A stretch of 64,000 nucleotides of DNA from Holdemania sp. Marseille-P2844. Lineage in GTDB: Bacteria; Bacillota_I; Bacilli_A; Erysipelotrichales; Erysipelotrichaceae. Below the pieces are notes generated by a model. It ran no database searches and had not been told where the DNA came from. It worked only from the letters and a program-made list of their open reading frames with translations. Positions 19,873-27,103 of the stretch are shown here, one piece after another. Both the position numbers and the translations under genes were made by a program. Each line of letters opens with the position of its first letter. Position 1 is the stretch's first letter. The stretch is taken from assembly GCF_900120005.1 (NCBI RefSeq), contig NZ_LT635452.1:62001-126000 (forward strand), in the 5' to 3' direction.

Positions 19873-21930
19873 ATGGAAGACTGCTACAAGGGATTTGTTG
19901 AAGGCGTCTGGTCCCGCGAGATCAACGTCCGCGACTTCATCCAGAAGAACTACACCCCGTATGACGGCGACGATTCGTTTCTGGCGGGGCCGACGGAAGC
20001 CACGCTGAAACTGTGGGATCAGGTCATGGAGCTGAGCCGCCAGGAGCGCGAAGCCGGCGGCGTCCTGGATATGGATACCAAGATCATCTCGACGATTACT
20101 TCCCACGGCCCGGGTTATCTGAACAAGGATCTGGAAAAGATCGTCGGCTTTCAGACCGACAAACCGTTCAAGCGTTCCCTGCAGCCTTACGGCGGCATCC
20201 GCATGGCGCAGAAAGCCTGCTCGGACAACGGCTATGAAGTCGACCCGGAGATTGTCGATTTCTTCACCGTCCACCGCAAAACTCACAATGCGGGCGTGTT
20301 CGACGCCTATACCCCGGAGATGCGGGCCTGCCGTTCCAGCCATGTTATCACCGGTCTGCCGGATGCTTACGGCCGCGGCCGGATTGTCGGCGACTATCGC
20401 CGGATTGCGCTGTATGGCGTTGATCGTCTGATTGAAGACAAGCAGCATCAGAAGGATTCGACGCGCGTCATCATGTATTCCAACGTCATCCGTGAACGGG
20501 AGGAACTGTCGGAACAGATCCGCGCGTTACAGGAGCTGAAAAAACTCGGTGAAATCTACGGCTATGATATTTCCCGGCCGGCCAAGGATACCAGGGAAGC
20601 GATCCAGTGGCTGTATTTCGGCTATCTGGCGGCCGTTAAGGAACAAAACGGCGCGGCGATGTCGCTGGGCCGGACCTCGACCTTCATTGATATCTACGCT
20701 CAGCGCGACCTGGACAACGGCGTTTACACCGAGGAAGAAATCCAGGAATTCATTGATCATTTCATCATGAAGCTGCGGCTGGTCAAGTTTGCCCGTACCC
20801 CGGAATACAACGAACTGTTCTCCGGCGATCCGACCTGGGTCACGGAATCGATCGGCGGCGTCGGCATCGACGGCCGGCATCTGGTCACCAAGTCTTCCTT
20901 CCGTTACCTCCATACCTTAAAGAATCTGGGCACCGCGCCGGAACCGAACCTGACGGTGCTGTGGTCGACGCGGCTGCCGCAGAACTTCAAGCGATTCTGT
21001 GCCAAGACCTCGATCGAGTCCTCGTCCATCCAGTATGAAAACGACGATCTGATGCGCGTTACCCATGGCGACGATTACACGATCGCCTGCTGCGTCTCCT
21101 CGATGCGCATCGGCAAGGAAATGCAGTTCTTCGGCGCCCGCGCGAATCTGGCGAAGTGCCTGTTGTACGCGATCAACGGCGGCGTCGATGAAATTTCCGG
21201 CAAGCAGGTCGGACCGGAATACCGGCCGATCACTTCGGAATATCTGGATTACGACGAAGTTATGCACAAATACAAGCAGATGATGAAGTGGCTGGCGCAG
21301 GTCTATGTTAACGCGCTGAACATCATCCATTATATGCACGATAAATATTGTTACGAAAAGCTGCAGATGGCGCTGCATGACAAGGACGTCAAGCGCTGGT
21401 TTGCCACCGGCATCGCGGGTCTGTCCGTCGTTGCCGATTCACTCTCCGCGATCAAATATGCCAAGGTCAAGGCGATCCGGGATGAACGCGGCATCGTCGT
21501 CGATTATGAAGTCGAGGGCGACTTCCCGAAATACGGCAACGACGACGACCGCGTCGACGCGGTTGCCAGCGAGATCGTCCACACCTTCATGACTTACATC
21601 AAGGGCAACCACACCTACCGCGGCGGCATCCCGACGACCTCGATCTTAACGATCACCTCCAACGTCGTCTATGGCAAGAACACCGGTTCCACCCCGGATG
21701 GCCGTAAGAAGGGCGAGCCGTTTGCGCCGGGCGCCAATCCGATGCACAAGCGCGACAGCCATGGCGCCGTCGCTTCACTGGCTTCGGTTTCCAAGCTGCC
21801 GTTTGCGGATGCGCAGGACGGTATCTCCAACACCTTCTCGATCATTCCCAACGCGCTGGGTAAGGAGATCGTCACCAGCGGCGATCTGGAAGTCGAGCTG
21901 GAGCTGGATGAAATTGAAAGCAACGAATAA
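19873..21930 (+). CDS. pflB: Pyruvate formate-lyase large subunit lacking the glycyl radical domain
   Basis: 685 residues; ordinary PflB is about 745-760. Converts pyruvate and CoA to acetyl-CoA and formate. It follows the family closely from the N-terminus ([17 protein letters not shown]) through the active-site pair Cys406-Cys407 in [19 protein letters not shown] to the ending [10 protein letters not shown] near residue 660. After this it diverges into an acidic tail ([14 protein letters not shown]) and stops. The C-terminal part with the radical glycine is missing here and is supplied by the gene at 22188. The start has AGGAGGATACT. It is the first gene of pflB-79aa-glycyl domain-pflA, all on one strand. 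The stop is followed in the same frame, after one codon, by the next ATG. Confidence 0.93.
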
Positions 21931-21933
21931 ACG

Positions 21934-22173
21934 ATGAAGCAGGAACAGCTGATCGACGATTTGATCGCGCAGCTGGACCAGTCCTTCGCCGCCGGCGTGG
22001 GCCATGTCAACGTCAGCGTCGAGGGATCGACGGTTCAGCTGGAGAAGATCGACAAAAATGAAGAAAGCCTGGTCAAAGAAGTGGAAACGCTGGGCTGTCT
22101 GGATTGTGAAAAACAGAATCTCGCGTGCAAGACCCCGACGTTAATGGAGGGGCTGGACCGGAACGAAGAATAA
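21934..22173 (+). CDS. 79-residue protein resembling a diverged half glycyl radical domain, with CxxC motif
   Basis: Residues 4-31 ([15 protein letters not shown], then [10 protein letters not shown]) align with residues 5-32 of the 80-residue glycyl radical protein ([19 protein letters not shown], then HHLNVNVF), sharing the ID-L--LD spacing, a G-H pair and the NV-V strand. The second half is unrelated: it has no RVSGYAV glycine loop and instead carries Cys55, Cys58 and Cys65 (GCLDCEK, LACKTP). It begins four bases after the pflB stop in the same reading frame, with a weak ribosome site, so translation is probably coupled. Function unknown. It may cap the open PFL subunit, help assembly, or bind a metal. 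It is not found in ordinary pfl operons as far as I recall. Confidence 0.75.
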
Positions 22174-22187
22174 AGGAGGAAACGAAT

Positions 22188-22430
22188 ATGAGTACGATGG
22201 ATCAACAGATCGACAACCTGGTATCGCTTTTGGACGGTTATGCCGAAAAGGGCGGACATCATCTGAACGTCAACGTTTTCAACCGGGAAACGCTGCTGGA
22301 CGCTCAGGCACATCCGGAAAAATATCCGCAGCTGACCGTGCGCGTCAGCGGTTATGCGGTCAACTTCAACAAGCTGACGAAGGCGCAGCAGGACGAAGTC
22401 ATTTCGCGGACCTTCCACGAACAGATTTAA
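22188..22430 (+). CDS. Stand-alone glycyl radical domain of pyruvate formate-lyase (GrcA/YfiD-like)
   Basis: 80 residues from the ATG at 22188, preceded by a strong AAAGGAGG. The whole protein matches the C-terminus of Pfl[21 protein letters not shown], then [12 protein letters not shown] and the radical loop RVSGYAV with Gly55, ending in [10 protein letters not shown]. coli YfiD/GrcA has this domain too, but there it repairs an otherwise complete PflB. Here the large subunit has no glycine of its own, so this polypeptide must carry the radical for any activity. The strong ribosome site would allow excess over the large subunit. Six bases separate it from pflA. Confidence 0.93.
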
Positions 22431-22436
22431 CGGCGT

Positions 22437-23186
22437 ATGAGCGAAGGCCGGATTCATTCGCTGGAAAGCTTCGGCACCGTCGACGGGCCGGGCGTCCGGC
22501 TGGTTGTGTTTGTCCAGGGCTGTCCAATGCGCTGCCGGTATTGTCATAATCCTGATACCTGGCGGCGCGAGGGTGGTCAAATGATGAGCGCGGCGGAAAT
22601 TCTTCGGACATACAAACGCAACGAAGCGTTTTACCGCGGCGGCGGAATCACGGTGAGCGGCGGGGAACCGCTGGGACAGAAGGAATTTGTCAGGGAGCTG
22701 TTTGCGGCGGCGAAGCAGGCTGGAATTCACACGTGTCTGGATACGTCGGGGATTTTATTTGATCCGTCCCATCCGGAAGCGTTCGATTCCCTGCTTGCGG
22801 TCACGGATCTGGTGCTGTTGGACATCAAGCAGATCGATCCGGCTCAGCACCGCTGGCTGACCGGGCAGGACAATGAGCGGATTCTGGCCTTCGCCAGGTA
22901 TTTGAACGCGAAGCAGGTTCCGGTCTGGATCCGGCACGTCTATGTCAACGCGTCCCTGAACCCGCCTGAGCAGTTATTCGCGCTGGGTGAGTTTTTAGGC
23001 ACACTGCACAATGTCAAAGCGGTCGACGTTCTGCCTTATCATACGATGGGCAAGGTCAAGTATGAGCAGCTGGGGCTGGCCTACCCGCTGGAAGGGATTC
23101 CGCAGGCGACGATGGAACAGGCCCGCCAGGCCCGCTCAACCATTCTTCAAGGCATGCGGAAAGCGCGGCGTCAGACTGTGTCCTGA
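22437..23186 (+). CDS. pflA: Pyruvate formate-lyase activating enzyme (radical SAM)
   Basis: 249 residues. Generates the glycyl radical by hydrogen abstraction with a 5'-deoxyadenosyl radical. The [4Fe-4S] cysteines are Cys29, Cys33 and Cys36 in GCPMRCRYCHNPD. The SAM-binding GGE motif is TVSGGEPLGQ. The family C-terminal LLPYHTMGKVKYEQLG is present. Length and domain match ordinary PflA (about 245). It has no strong ribosome site, starts six bases after the glycyl domain stop, and so is probably translated by coupling. Its substrate here should be the separate 80-residue domain, probably bound to the large subunit. Confidence 0.94.
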   Translation: MSEGRIHSLESFGTVDGPGVRLVVFVQGCPMRCRYCHNPDTWRREGGQMMSAAEILRTYKRNEAFYRGGGITVSGGEPLGQKEFVRELFAAAKQAGIHTCLDTSGILFDPSHPEAFDSLLAVTDLVLLDIKQIDPAQHRWLTGQDNERILAFARYLNAKQVPVWIRHVYVNASLNPPEQLFALGEFLGTLHNVKAVDVLPYHTMGKVKYEQLGLAYPLEGIPQATMEQARQARSTILQGMRKARRQTVS

Positions 23187-23357: not shown

Positions 23358-24067
23358 TTAGTCCTGTGCGGTATAAATCGTTTTTCCAAACGTATAAGCG
23401 GTATCCAGATAGCCGGTATCCTCAATGTGCTTCGGACCCCCGCAGCCCCCGCAGCCGCCGGCCAGGACATGACCTTTGTCATGCCAGCTCAGATAATTTG
23501 AAATCACGTGCTGATAATAGGATAACGCCTGCTCGAAGGTCCACCAGTTGTCATCCGCCGCGCTCATCAGTAAAGCACAGTCCAGATCCGGGTATTTTTC
23601 ATACCGGCCGAAGGCGGATTCGGATCTTCGCTGCAGGTCGCGTACAACCGTTCCAGAACATTTTTGATGACACCGGTCAACGTCCAGTAACGCAGCGCTG
23701 AAGCGAAGACGACAAGATCGGTGTTTTTGATCGCTTCATAAATTTCTGTCATGTCATCCTGCTGCACGCAGCCTTTGCCATACCGGCATTGATCACACCC
23801 CAGACAACAGCGGATATCCCGGCTGCCAAGAAAAATCGAAGTGACTTCGTGACCTTGCGAAGCGGCGCCCTCGGCAAAACTGTCGGCCAGCTTCACCGTG
23901 TTTCCTTCCGGCGACGCGCCGATCAGAATCAAAATCCGGCGCGGCGTGATATCCGCGGCCGAGCCGATTTCCTGTGCCGCACAGCCGGGCAGGATACTCA
24001 TTGTCGCAACGCCGCAGGCGCCGGCGGCCGCGCTTTTAAGAAAAGTTCTTCGAGACATAATTTCCAT
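23358..24067 (-). pseudogene. Tat-exported flavodoxin-like reductase, frameshifted
   Basis: Two overlapping frames read as one NADPH-dependent FMN reductase-like protein of about 235 residues. The first (from 24067) has a twin-arginine leader (MSRRTFLKS) with a lipobox-like LPGCAA, the flavin loop GASPEGNTVKLADSF, and CCLGCDQCRYGKGC, the CxxC signature of iron-sulfur flavoproteins. It runs to NPPS near 23612 and then goes out of frame. The second frame resumes with FGRYEKYPDLDCALLMSA and ends in GHVLAGGCGGCGGPKH. One extra T in the TT run at 23611-23612 would rejoin them. Either a real disruption or a sequencing error. Confidence 0.8.
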
Positions 24068-25255: not shown

Positions 25256-27103
25256 TTATTTTAAGGCTGCGGCGATCGCTTCCGCGGCCAGTTTGCCGGA
25301 GGTCAGCGCCCAGCCGTTGTTGGCGCCGGATGGGGAATCGTCGCCCATGACGCCGCCGACGGTTTCACCCGCGGCGTACAGCCCTGGAATAACCGTGTCG
25401 GAAGTATTCTTTACTTCCAAATTTGTCGTCACAACCAGACCGCCCATGGTTGTCGCAAAGCGCGGTTTCTGTTCGACTAAATAATACGGGCCTTCACCGA
25501 TCTCTTTTGTCAGATACTCGGCAGCGCGTCCGAATTCTTCATCCTTGCCGTTTTGCACAAAGGTGTTGTACGTCGTAACGGTATTTTCCAGCGCTTGGGC
25601 GTCCATGCCGACGATTCCGGCCAGTTCCGCCAAAGAATCCGCATGCGCGAAGACTGGCGTCGTCTTGCCGTTATTGTCCAGCCAGCCGTTGATATCGCCT
25701 TCGGAGATTCCGCCGGTAGCCAGCTTGCTTTTAAAGAGATCGAAGGTGGAGGCGTCCATCAACAGGTATAACATGCCGTCCGTCTGCTTCAATTCGGTTT
25801 CCAGAATCGTCCGGTTCGACGCTTTTTCATTGACGACGCGCTGACCTTCCTTGTTGATCAGAATTGCGCTTTCGCTGAAGGCCGCGATGTTGCCGGCGAT
25901 CGTGGACTTCGCGATGCCTTCGGAGACTTCGATGCCGTTGGGATAACGTTTGCCGTATTCCATCAATCGGGTTGCCGCGTTAACGTTTTCCGCCGTGGCC
26001 ATCACGATGCCGTCGCCCGTGGAGGACGCCGGTCCATAATACAGCGCGCTTTTCATCTCGTCATTTAACAGATCCTTGTTATTGCCATAACCGCCGGTCG
26101 CTAACAGCACGGCTTTGGCGTTGATCGTATACTCTGTTTTCTCATCCGCCGCTTTGACCCCGACAACTGCGCCGGTCTGGTCAATGATCAGCTCGCTGGC
26201 GCGTGTACTCAACAGAACTTCCGCGCCGCTGGCTTCGACGGCTTCCCGCAGCACTTTCGCGGCTCCCGCGCCGCCGCCTTCATACGCTAATTCGCGGTCG
26301 TGCGAATATTCCGCCAGCTTGTGCAGTCCGCCGTCCAGATCAAAGTTCAGCTTAACACTGTCATGCAGCCAGTCGGTCGTTGCGCCGACATTCTCTGCGT
26401 ACAGCTGGATCAGTTCCCCAACGTTCAGGTTTGCGCCGTTGGCCATGAAATCCTCAACCATGCTTTCGACTGAATCGTCGCTCACGCCGGCCTGCTTCTG
26501 CAGGTCGCTGCCCATCACGACCTGATTGCCGCCGCTGATCGAAATCGCGCCGCCCATAAACGACATCTTTTCCACCAAGACGACGTTTAAGCCTGATTCT
26601 TCAGCCCGGATTGTCGCAGCCATGCCCGCTGCGCCGCCTCCGACAACGACCAGATCGGTATCCAAGGTTTTGGCTTCTTTTTCTGCCGCCGTTTTGTTTC
26701 CGGCCGTCTTCAAGGCTTCCACATCGCCTCCAGCCTGCGTGACGCAGTCTTCCACCGCGGCTAAAATCGCTTCGCTGGTATGCGTGGCGCCGGATACGAC
26801 GTCGACCGCCAAGGTCTGTCCGTCAACGATCGCCTGCGGAATCGAGGTCAGCGGCGCGGATGCGATCGCTTCGGTTTCCTGCTGATTTTTGACGACGACG
26901 CTGCTGATCGCGTCGGCGGTGAAGGTGACTTCCAGTTCTACCGGGCCGTTATTGCCCTGGGCGGAAGCCGTGTAGGTTCCCGCTTTGTACTGCCCGGATG
27001 CCGGTTCTTCGTTCTTCGGCGTTCCGGAACACGCCGCTAACGAGAATGCAAGCAGACAGGCGGCCAGCGCTTTGCCGGTCTTGATTGTCCAATTCTTTTT
27101 CAT
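25256..27103 (-). CDS. Secreted FAD-dependent reductase lipoprotein with covalent-FMN domain (fumarate/urocanate reductase type)
   Basis: 615 residues. Lipoprotein signal with lipobox SLAACSG. The FMN-binding domain (about 40-125) has DVVSGATHTS, the canonical ApbE flavinylation site. The flavocytochrome c-type FAD domain (about 150-615) starts with the Rossmann motif LVVVGGGAAGMAA and ends with GLYAAGETVGG. Such enzymes sit outside the membrane and use fumarate, urocanate, cinnamate-type or related acceptors as electron sinks in anaerobic gut Firmicutes. The substrate here cannot be told. Divergent from the LysR gene at 27235, with a shared dyad. It is the last gene before its terminator, so monocistronic, and no cytochrome or quinol partner is adjacent. 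Confidence 0.9.
   Translation of the reverse strand: MKKNWTIKTGKALAACLLAFSLAACSGTPKNEEPASGQYKAGTYTASAQGNNGPVELEVTFTADAISSVVVKNQQETEAIASAPLTSIPQAIVDGQTLAVDVVSGATHTSEAILAAVEDCVTQAGGDVEALKTAGNKTAAEKEAKTLDTDLVVVGGGAAGMAATIRAEESGLNVVLVEKMSFMGGAISISGGNQVVMGSDLQKQAGVSDDSVESMVEDFMANGANLNVGELIQLYAENVGATTDWLHDSVKLNFDLDGGLHKLAEYSHDRELAYEGGGAGAAKVLREAVEASGAEVLLSTRASELIIDQTGAVVGVKAADEKTEYTINAKAVLLATGGYGNNKDLLNDEMKSALYYGPASSTGDGIVMATAENVNAATRLMEYGKRYPNGIEVSEGIAKSTIAGNIAAFSESAILINKEGQRVVNEKASNRTILETELKQTDGMLYLLMDASTFDLFKSKLATGGISEGDINGWLDNNGKTTPVFAHADSLAELAGIVGMDAQALENTVTTYNTFVQNGKDEEFGRAAEYLTKEIGEGPYYLVEQKPRFATTMGGLVVTTNLEVKNTSDTVIPGLYAAGETVGGVMGDDSPSGANNGWALTSGKLAAEAIAAALK

Follow-up and report, generated by a model that had tools for sequence, protein, structure and literature searches.

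The window analysed here, 64,000 nucleotides of a contig of Holdemania sp. Marseille-P2844 (NZ_LT635452.1), carries an operon for pyruvate formate-lyase (PFL), a central fermentation enzyme of the gut that oxygen destroys at its glycyl radical. The operon is of the split kind: the large subunit ends before the glycyl radical domain (GRD), which is supplied in trans by the stand-alone protein GrcA3, with the PflA activase encoded next; an extra ORF of 79 residues lies between large subunit and GrcA3 (Table 1). In an NCBIfam search the large subunit's match to TIGR01255 stops at position 662 of the 744 in the model. Its terminal GDLxIDL-type segment is kept in the split PFLs of the window's clade, and in relatives this segment bears a fused cysteine tail. 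GrcA3 has its radical glycine at Gly55 (codon at 22350), contains no cysteine and is preceded by a strong Shine-Dalgarno sequence, AAAGGAGG. The extra ORF, as the first-pass annotation had said, begins in frame one codon behind the pflB stop (TAA at 21928-21930, then ACG, then ATG), and the cysteines reported for its product, Cys55, Cys58 and Cys65, were verified at those positions. Downstream of the operon, on the opposite strand, the ORF translations read as an oxidoreductase of flavodoxin-like type that seems to have a Tat signal, RRTFLKSA (23567-24067), and as an FMN-binding/fumarate-reductase-like flavoprotein (25256-27103).

Table 1. The split pfl operon and the parts of its extra ORF (positions in the window)
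Feature	Position	Strand	Basis
PFL large subunit, 685 aa; core complete, GRD absent	19873..21930	+	TIGR01255, 1104 bits
Active-site Cys-Cys of the large subunit	residues 406-407, codons from 21088	+	position of the Cys pair
C-terminal extension of the large subunit, GDLxIDL-type segment	21868..21927	+	comparison of C-termini
79-aa ORF ('mid'): half-GRD and cysteine tail	21934..22173	+	ORF list, homologues, dN/dS
Half glycyl radical domain, mid residues 3-32: helix IDDLIAQLD, turn GVGH, strand VNVSV	21940..22029	+	GRD profile, NF038360
Cysteine tail with C55, C58, C65	22093..22158	+	alignment of 34 relatives; equivalent tail fused to the large subunit elsewhere
GrcA3, stand-alone GRD, 80 aa	22188..22430	+	NF038360, 170.5 bits (cut-off 158)
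PflA, radical SAM activase, motif CPMRCRYC	22437..23186	+	TIGR02493, 288.9 bits (over cut-off)

The solved chains nearest the large subunit are two PDB entries named 'Formate acetyltransferase'. One (38la, 687 residues) ends in LGKE, as split PFLs do; the other (38lb, 739 residues) has a tail starting SGNVMFGECDMCEMKELD that gives no match to the GRD. This indicates that split-type large subunits have already been solved, and the likeness to the window is confined to the large-subunit chains: for the ORF and its tail the PDB offers no match. A literature search found no paper on either entry.

The ORF encodes a real, conserved protein under purifying selection. Across Holdemania and a neighbouring genus its dN/dS is about 0.09 (range 0.08-0.15); within the genus grcA3 comes out at about 0.03, and the large subunit at 0.02-0.05. 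The protein is undescribed: it has no Pfam or NCBIfam model, the window's copy has no NCBIfam match at E<=1 and no meaningful Pfam match, and a literature search on split PFL and GrcA3 turned up work on YfiD but none that deals with the operon or the ORF. Among named genomes, Holdemania filiformis DSM 12042 comes closest (97% identity), followed by H. massiliensis AP2 (86%). In H. filiformis (L084, L175) the match to pflA is interrupted at residues 143-156, with some 210 extra nucleotides.

Relatives of the ORF occur in the window's genus, scattered through its family, widely in the second family of the order Erysipelotrichales, in a single further genome of the class (G320) and in hundreds of genomes of Lachnospiraceae; the viral contigs searched held none. 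Genome scans, with E-values counted per genome, gave 325 candidate stretches encoding a relative at E<=1e-3. Among the best 80 of these 325, which were fetched, the order large subunit-ORF holds in all 80, and GrcA3 comes next wherever the contig is long enough. In one evenly drawn sample of 200 Lachnospiraceae genomes, taken without completeness figures, 51 of 53 ORF matches have grcA3 on their own strand less than 600 nt downstream. One homologue (L265, in G478) is stopped right after its first CxxC, possibly as a pseudogene or by an assembly error. On this record of position and conservation, the ORF is very probably an accessory subunit of the split enzyme.

A lack of conservation in relatives with the same split had been named as grounds for refuting the first-pass reading, and the result goes the other way: the ORF stands beside split PFLs in hundreds of genomes, although many split PFLs of other Bacilli do without it. 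The idea that it accompanies every split PFL is rejected, since there are Bacilli types, with a large subunit ending in LGKD, that have no such ORF. As there are split PFLs in other Bacilli with neither the ORF nor the cysteine tail, the module is not required for a trans-acting GRD as such.

The proposed likeness of the first half to the start of the GRD is greater than chance would give. Against a profile built from 234 GRD sequences, 113 of 121 ORF homologues outscore every one of 2420 shuffled copies; the window's own protein aligns only in part, residues 3-32 to GRD positions 9-38, and with a modest score (11.0 bits; taken as a single sequence, E 1.6e-5). Of 34 homologues, 24 are matched by NF038360, the curated model of GrcA3 (best E 8.5e-5), and a reciprocal search with an ORF profile retrieves the N-terminal halves of GrcA3 and of the GRDs of intact PFLs. 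What is shared is the N-terminal helix and the HxNV strand, which corresponds to beta10 of PFL; after that strand the homology stops. The RVSGYA glycine is absent from the window's ORF and from all aligned relatives, and the cysteine tail stands in its place, again as first described. AlphaFold models, built from shallow alignments of similar sequences, cover the window's PFL-ORF chain, with Gly in place of the stop, and L212, where PFL, ORF and GrcA3 naturally form one in-frame chain; both models are poor (mean pLDDT 63 and 57). Both have a helix near the ORF N-terminus and a tail mostly below pLDDT 40; one also has a short strand at the GH-NV segment of the half-GRD.

The ORF product thus resembles GrcA3 and YfiD (GrcA; NF038360, TIGR04365, PDB 6owr) in its N-terminal half, with its helix and GxHxNV strand, and in being encoded with PFL and PflA, but it differs in the tail and falls far under the GrcA3 cut-off of 158 bits. 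Without the glycine loop it is unable to carry the radical. Duplication of the domain followed by loss of the loop is a plausible origin, the alternative being a remnant of the original in-cis GRD. One might then regard the ORF simply as a degenerate duplicate with no function: it is half a domain, the catalytic loop is gone, and it sits in frame after pflB. This is scarcely credible, for it is contradicted by the purifying selection, by conservation over two classes and by the appearance of a new conserved motif in the tail.

That motif has the consensus [K/R]xVxTxGCxDCxxxxxxACxVPTLxxGLD, with the spacing C-x2-C-x6-C, and in its wider form reads GCxDC-x6-C-x-[VI]-P-[TN]-L-x2-G-[LI]-D. Over 34 relatives from Erysipelotrichaceae and Lachnospiraceae, C58, A64, C65, P68 and T69 are invariant and C55 nearly so; in the order's second family the C58-C65 pair is usually all that is retained. 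Conservation of the cysteines in homologues, proposed as a check, is borne out for C58 and C65, which are nearly universal, and must be qualified for C55, which is usual but not universal: of 112 distinct homologues, 83 have three tail cysteines and 29 have two. The region after the last cysteine is acidic, with a mean net charge of -2.8 in the ORF form and -2.7 in tails fused to the large subunit. Profile searches bring out little else. Matches of single members to IpaC_SipC, PE-PPE and TIGR04118 (Pfam, NCBIfam) are at chance level, as is the sole match in a PDB profile search, a de novo TIM barrel. For TIGR04118, a family of Cys-rich RiPPs modified by radical SAM enzymes, this means a weak match in one of 34 relatives (E 0.019) and none for the window's ORF.

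One way to understand a small protein with such cysteines is as a metal or Fe-S accessory subunit, in which CxxC-x6-C, alone or across a dimer, would bind zinc or an iron-sulfur cluster. There are precedents: small metal-binding subunits control radical transfer in other glycyl radical enzymes, and the beta and gamma subunits of benzylsuccinate synthase are small, HiPIP-like [4Fe-4S] accessory subunits (PMC12590467). Both these and the ORF product are small, cysteine-containing companions of a radical enzyme, and the CX2CX6C spacing is constant in most ORF forms. The ORF, however, has no sequence match to the benzylsuccinate synthase subunits and lacks their four fixed cysteines; with two or three cysteines, and no family or PDB match, it falls short of the four Cys ligands that mark these proteins and the HPD small subunit. 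No metal-binding family of Pfam, NCBIfam or the PDB matches the ORF or its relatives, and the near-invariant cysteines number only two. The ORFs of the order's second family and 24 of 34 fused tails have just two cysteines, and in the fused tails the cysteines are anywhere between 0 and 9 residues apart, a variation easier to reconcile with thiol chemistry than with a fixed metal site. A metal-binding role is accordingly rather improbable.

The fused tails show that the tail is a portable module, present either in trans, as the ORF, or in cis, as a C-terminal part of the large subunit. The 200 sampled Lachnospiraceae genomes contain 91 stand-alone grcA3 genes, in 80 genomes (about 40% of the sample). 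The ORF lies just upstream of 51; the other 40 have no ORF there. Among these 40 are 28 loci with an examinable large subunit, and in 26 of the 28 the cysteine tail is fused to the large-subunit C-terminus, as in ...GDLDLDRIEDCKDLACNIPNIEDSIDNE; the remaining 2 have a large subunit with no tail in reach. The rest are 10 orphans with no PFL upstream and 2 genes at contig ends. The exchange can be seen between neighbours in the tree: L286 has the ORF (...NMACSVPTLHKGFDD) and L302 the fused form (...DMACKVPTLHKGIDD), with the same tail and the half-GRD missing from the latter. Fused tails occur also in the window's own family and class (L064, L077, L079, L138, L155).

Some features of gene content and order may be recorded alongside. 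Orphan second copies of grcA3, with no PFL subunit upstream, are found in the Lachnospiraceae loci L283, L298, L300, L304, L305, L306 and L308-L311; a thioredoxin gene adjoins the orphan in L306 and L311, and genes for Crp/Fnr-type regulators, judged by eye, lie near it in L283, L304, L306 and L310. Within the window's family (L061-L099, L136-L174), most split PFLs that lack the cysteine module end in LGKD and have pflA ahead of the large-subunit gene; where the module is present, pflA usually follows grcA3; in a third type (f5) the tail is free of cysteine and pflA lies downstream.

In a tree built on 348 columns of the PFL core (short-search trees), the ORF-bearing and tail-bearing PFLs come together in one fork of 89 rows (SH-aLRT 95); split PFLs of other Bacilli, lacking both, fall outside it. 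ORF and fused forms are intermixed within the fork, and the AU test rejects the grouping of every ORF form in a single clade (p 1e-4), so that a single switch between the two arrangements is rejected as well. The fork also contains six full-length PFLs whose GRD is GrcA3-like and has apparently been re-fused; a grouping of all module-bearing rows apart from full-length PFLs is rejected (p 0.011). Five of the six form one group (support 99) and have neither ORF nor cysteine tail. The sixth (L312, in G562) is an open frame of 774 aa with a GrcA3-like GRD and three cysteines in its linker (TCGCEEVTC), as if large subunit, cysteine tail and GrcA3 had been fused together.

These arrangements bear on what each half of the protein does. 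That a trans-acting GRD needs an element of the GRD half is already known from oxygen-cleaved E. coli PFL: there, residues 696-733 must remain for YfiD to bind and be activated, yet they must also move aside (PMC8683613). This segment overlaps the GRD half found in the ORF, and in both cases a pre-glycine piece of GRD stands alongside a GRD in trans. A second perspective thus supposes that the ORF is the counterpart of that stub with no redox role: the half-GRD, together with its tail, would recruit GrcA3 and orient it for PflA, while the cysteines merely stabilise the structure. The homology of the ORF to the first part of segment 696-733 and the requirement for the stub in YfiD binding and activation (PMC8683613) both speak for this. 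The ORF differs from the stub, however, in being separately encoded, in losing its likeness to the GRD after the strand and in having cysteines; above all, the fused tails always lack the half-GRD yet keep the cysteines, so that what stays constant is the cysteines and not the half-GRD. A pure recognition role is thus unlikely, if worth keeping in mind.

The same fused forms weigh on another proposal, that the half-GRD is a dummy that fills the GRD site of the radical-free protomer in a half-of-sites dimer. The ORF's homology to half of the GRD would suit this, and in vitro work is reported to have found PFL with radical at half of its sites, but the review that covers those reports argues against half-site reactivity in vivo (PMC12338860), and the fused forms have no half-GRD; the proposal is very improbable.

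If the tail occurs fused to the large subunit, with no need there of a half-GRD, then the tail is the functional core and the half-GRD is probably its tether. The reading preferred here, to which a probability of about 0.4 may be given as a whole, is that the half-GRD docks a Cys-pair tail at the entrance of the GRD and that the tail gates GrcA3 by its redox state. On this reading the half-GRD would bring the tail to that part of the large subunit where the mobile GRD must enter, presumably the edge where beta10 of PFL and the GRD normally sit, and there the tail would gate or mark the entrance. With its thiols reduced, GrcA3 could dock and be activated by PflA; with the thiols oxidised, most simply as a C58-C65 disulfide, a folded acidic tail would block or alter the site. 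In the oxidised state, for as long as oxygen persists, GrcA3 would then be neither loaded nor activated, and the vacant active site would be shielded.

A thiol gate is proposed because the Cys pair and the acidic end are the constant features, and because CP12 and GapB offer the closest working parallel. For the half-GRD the precedent is segment 696-733 of E. coli PFL, and the loss of both ORF and tail in the five re-fused PFLs also speaks for the reading. CP12 is a free protein of some 80 residues whose C-terminal Cys pair, when oxidised, inserts an acidic end into the active site of GAPDH; in GapB a CP12-type tail is fused to the C-terminus of the enzyme (PMC4436894). The ORF matches this scheme in its size, in its acid-ended Cys-pair tail and in the fusion of that tail, in relatives, to the C-terminus of the target enzyme. 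It differs in having no sequence homology and a different enzyme, and for the ORF redox switching is a prediction. Neither the ORF nor any of 34 relatives matches the CP12 family in Pfam, and the comparison would extend to the way of working, not to family membership.

Several observations count against the redox gate: other Bacilli have split PFLs with neither ORF nor tail, L312 keeps three linker cysteines even though its GRD has been re-fused, and the three cysteines of 83 of the 112 ORF forms would fit metal binding too. Thiols at the entrance would also allow a sacrificial role, in which, on exposure to oxygen or when substrate runs short, the tail quenches the glycyl or thiyl radical by giving up a hydrogen atom and so spares the GRD from cleavage. 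Conserved thiols placed, by inference, near the entrance, together with a GrcA3 that lacks cysteine, would suit such quenching; nothing, however, suggests that Gly55 or the Cys pair of the active site lies within reach of the tail, and the role has no need of homology to half a GRD. It is decidedly unlikely.

The redox gate has implications beyond this operon, as nearly all split PFLs of the sampled Lachnospiraceae that hold GrcA3 bear the cysteine module, as ORF or as fused tail. In its most general form, which is speculative and for now doubtful, the proposal would make the module a thiol redox latch in the split PFLs of gut Firmicutes, swappable between a free subunit, composed of a half-GRD adaptor and the Cys tail, and a C-terminal extension of the enzyme, that controls the loading of a replaceable radical domain: a switch like that of CP12 and GapB, evolved independently in the glycyl radical enzymes, within a natural and constitutive version of 'cleaved enzyme plus spare part'. 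If true, a dedicated subunit or tail that governs docking of the radical domain would account for the ability of strict anaerobes to keep a replaceable radical part that does not fire at the wrong time, and it would offer a handle on formate output and on the engineering of oxygen-tolerant radical enzymes.
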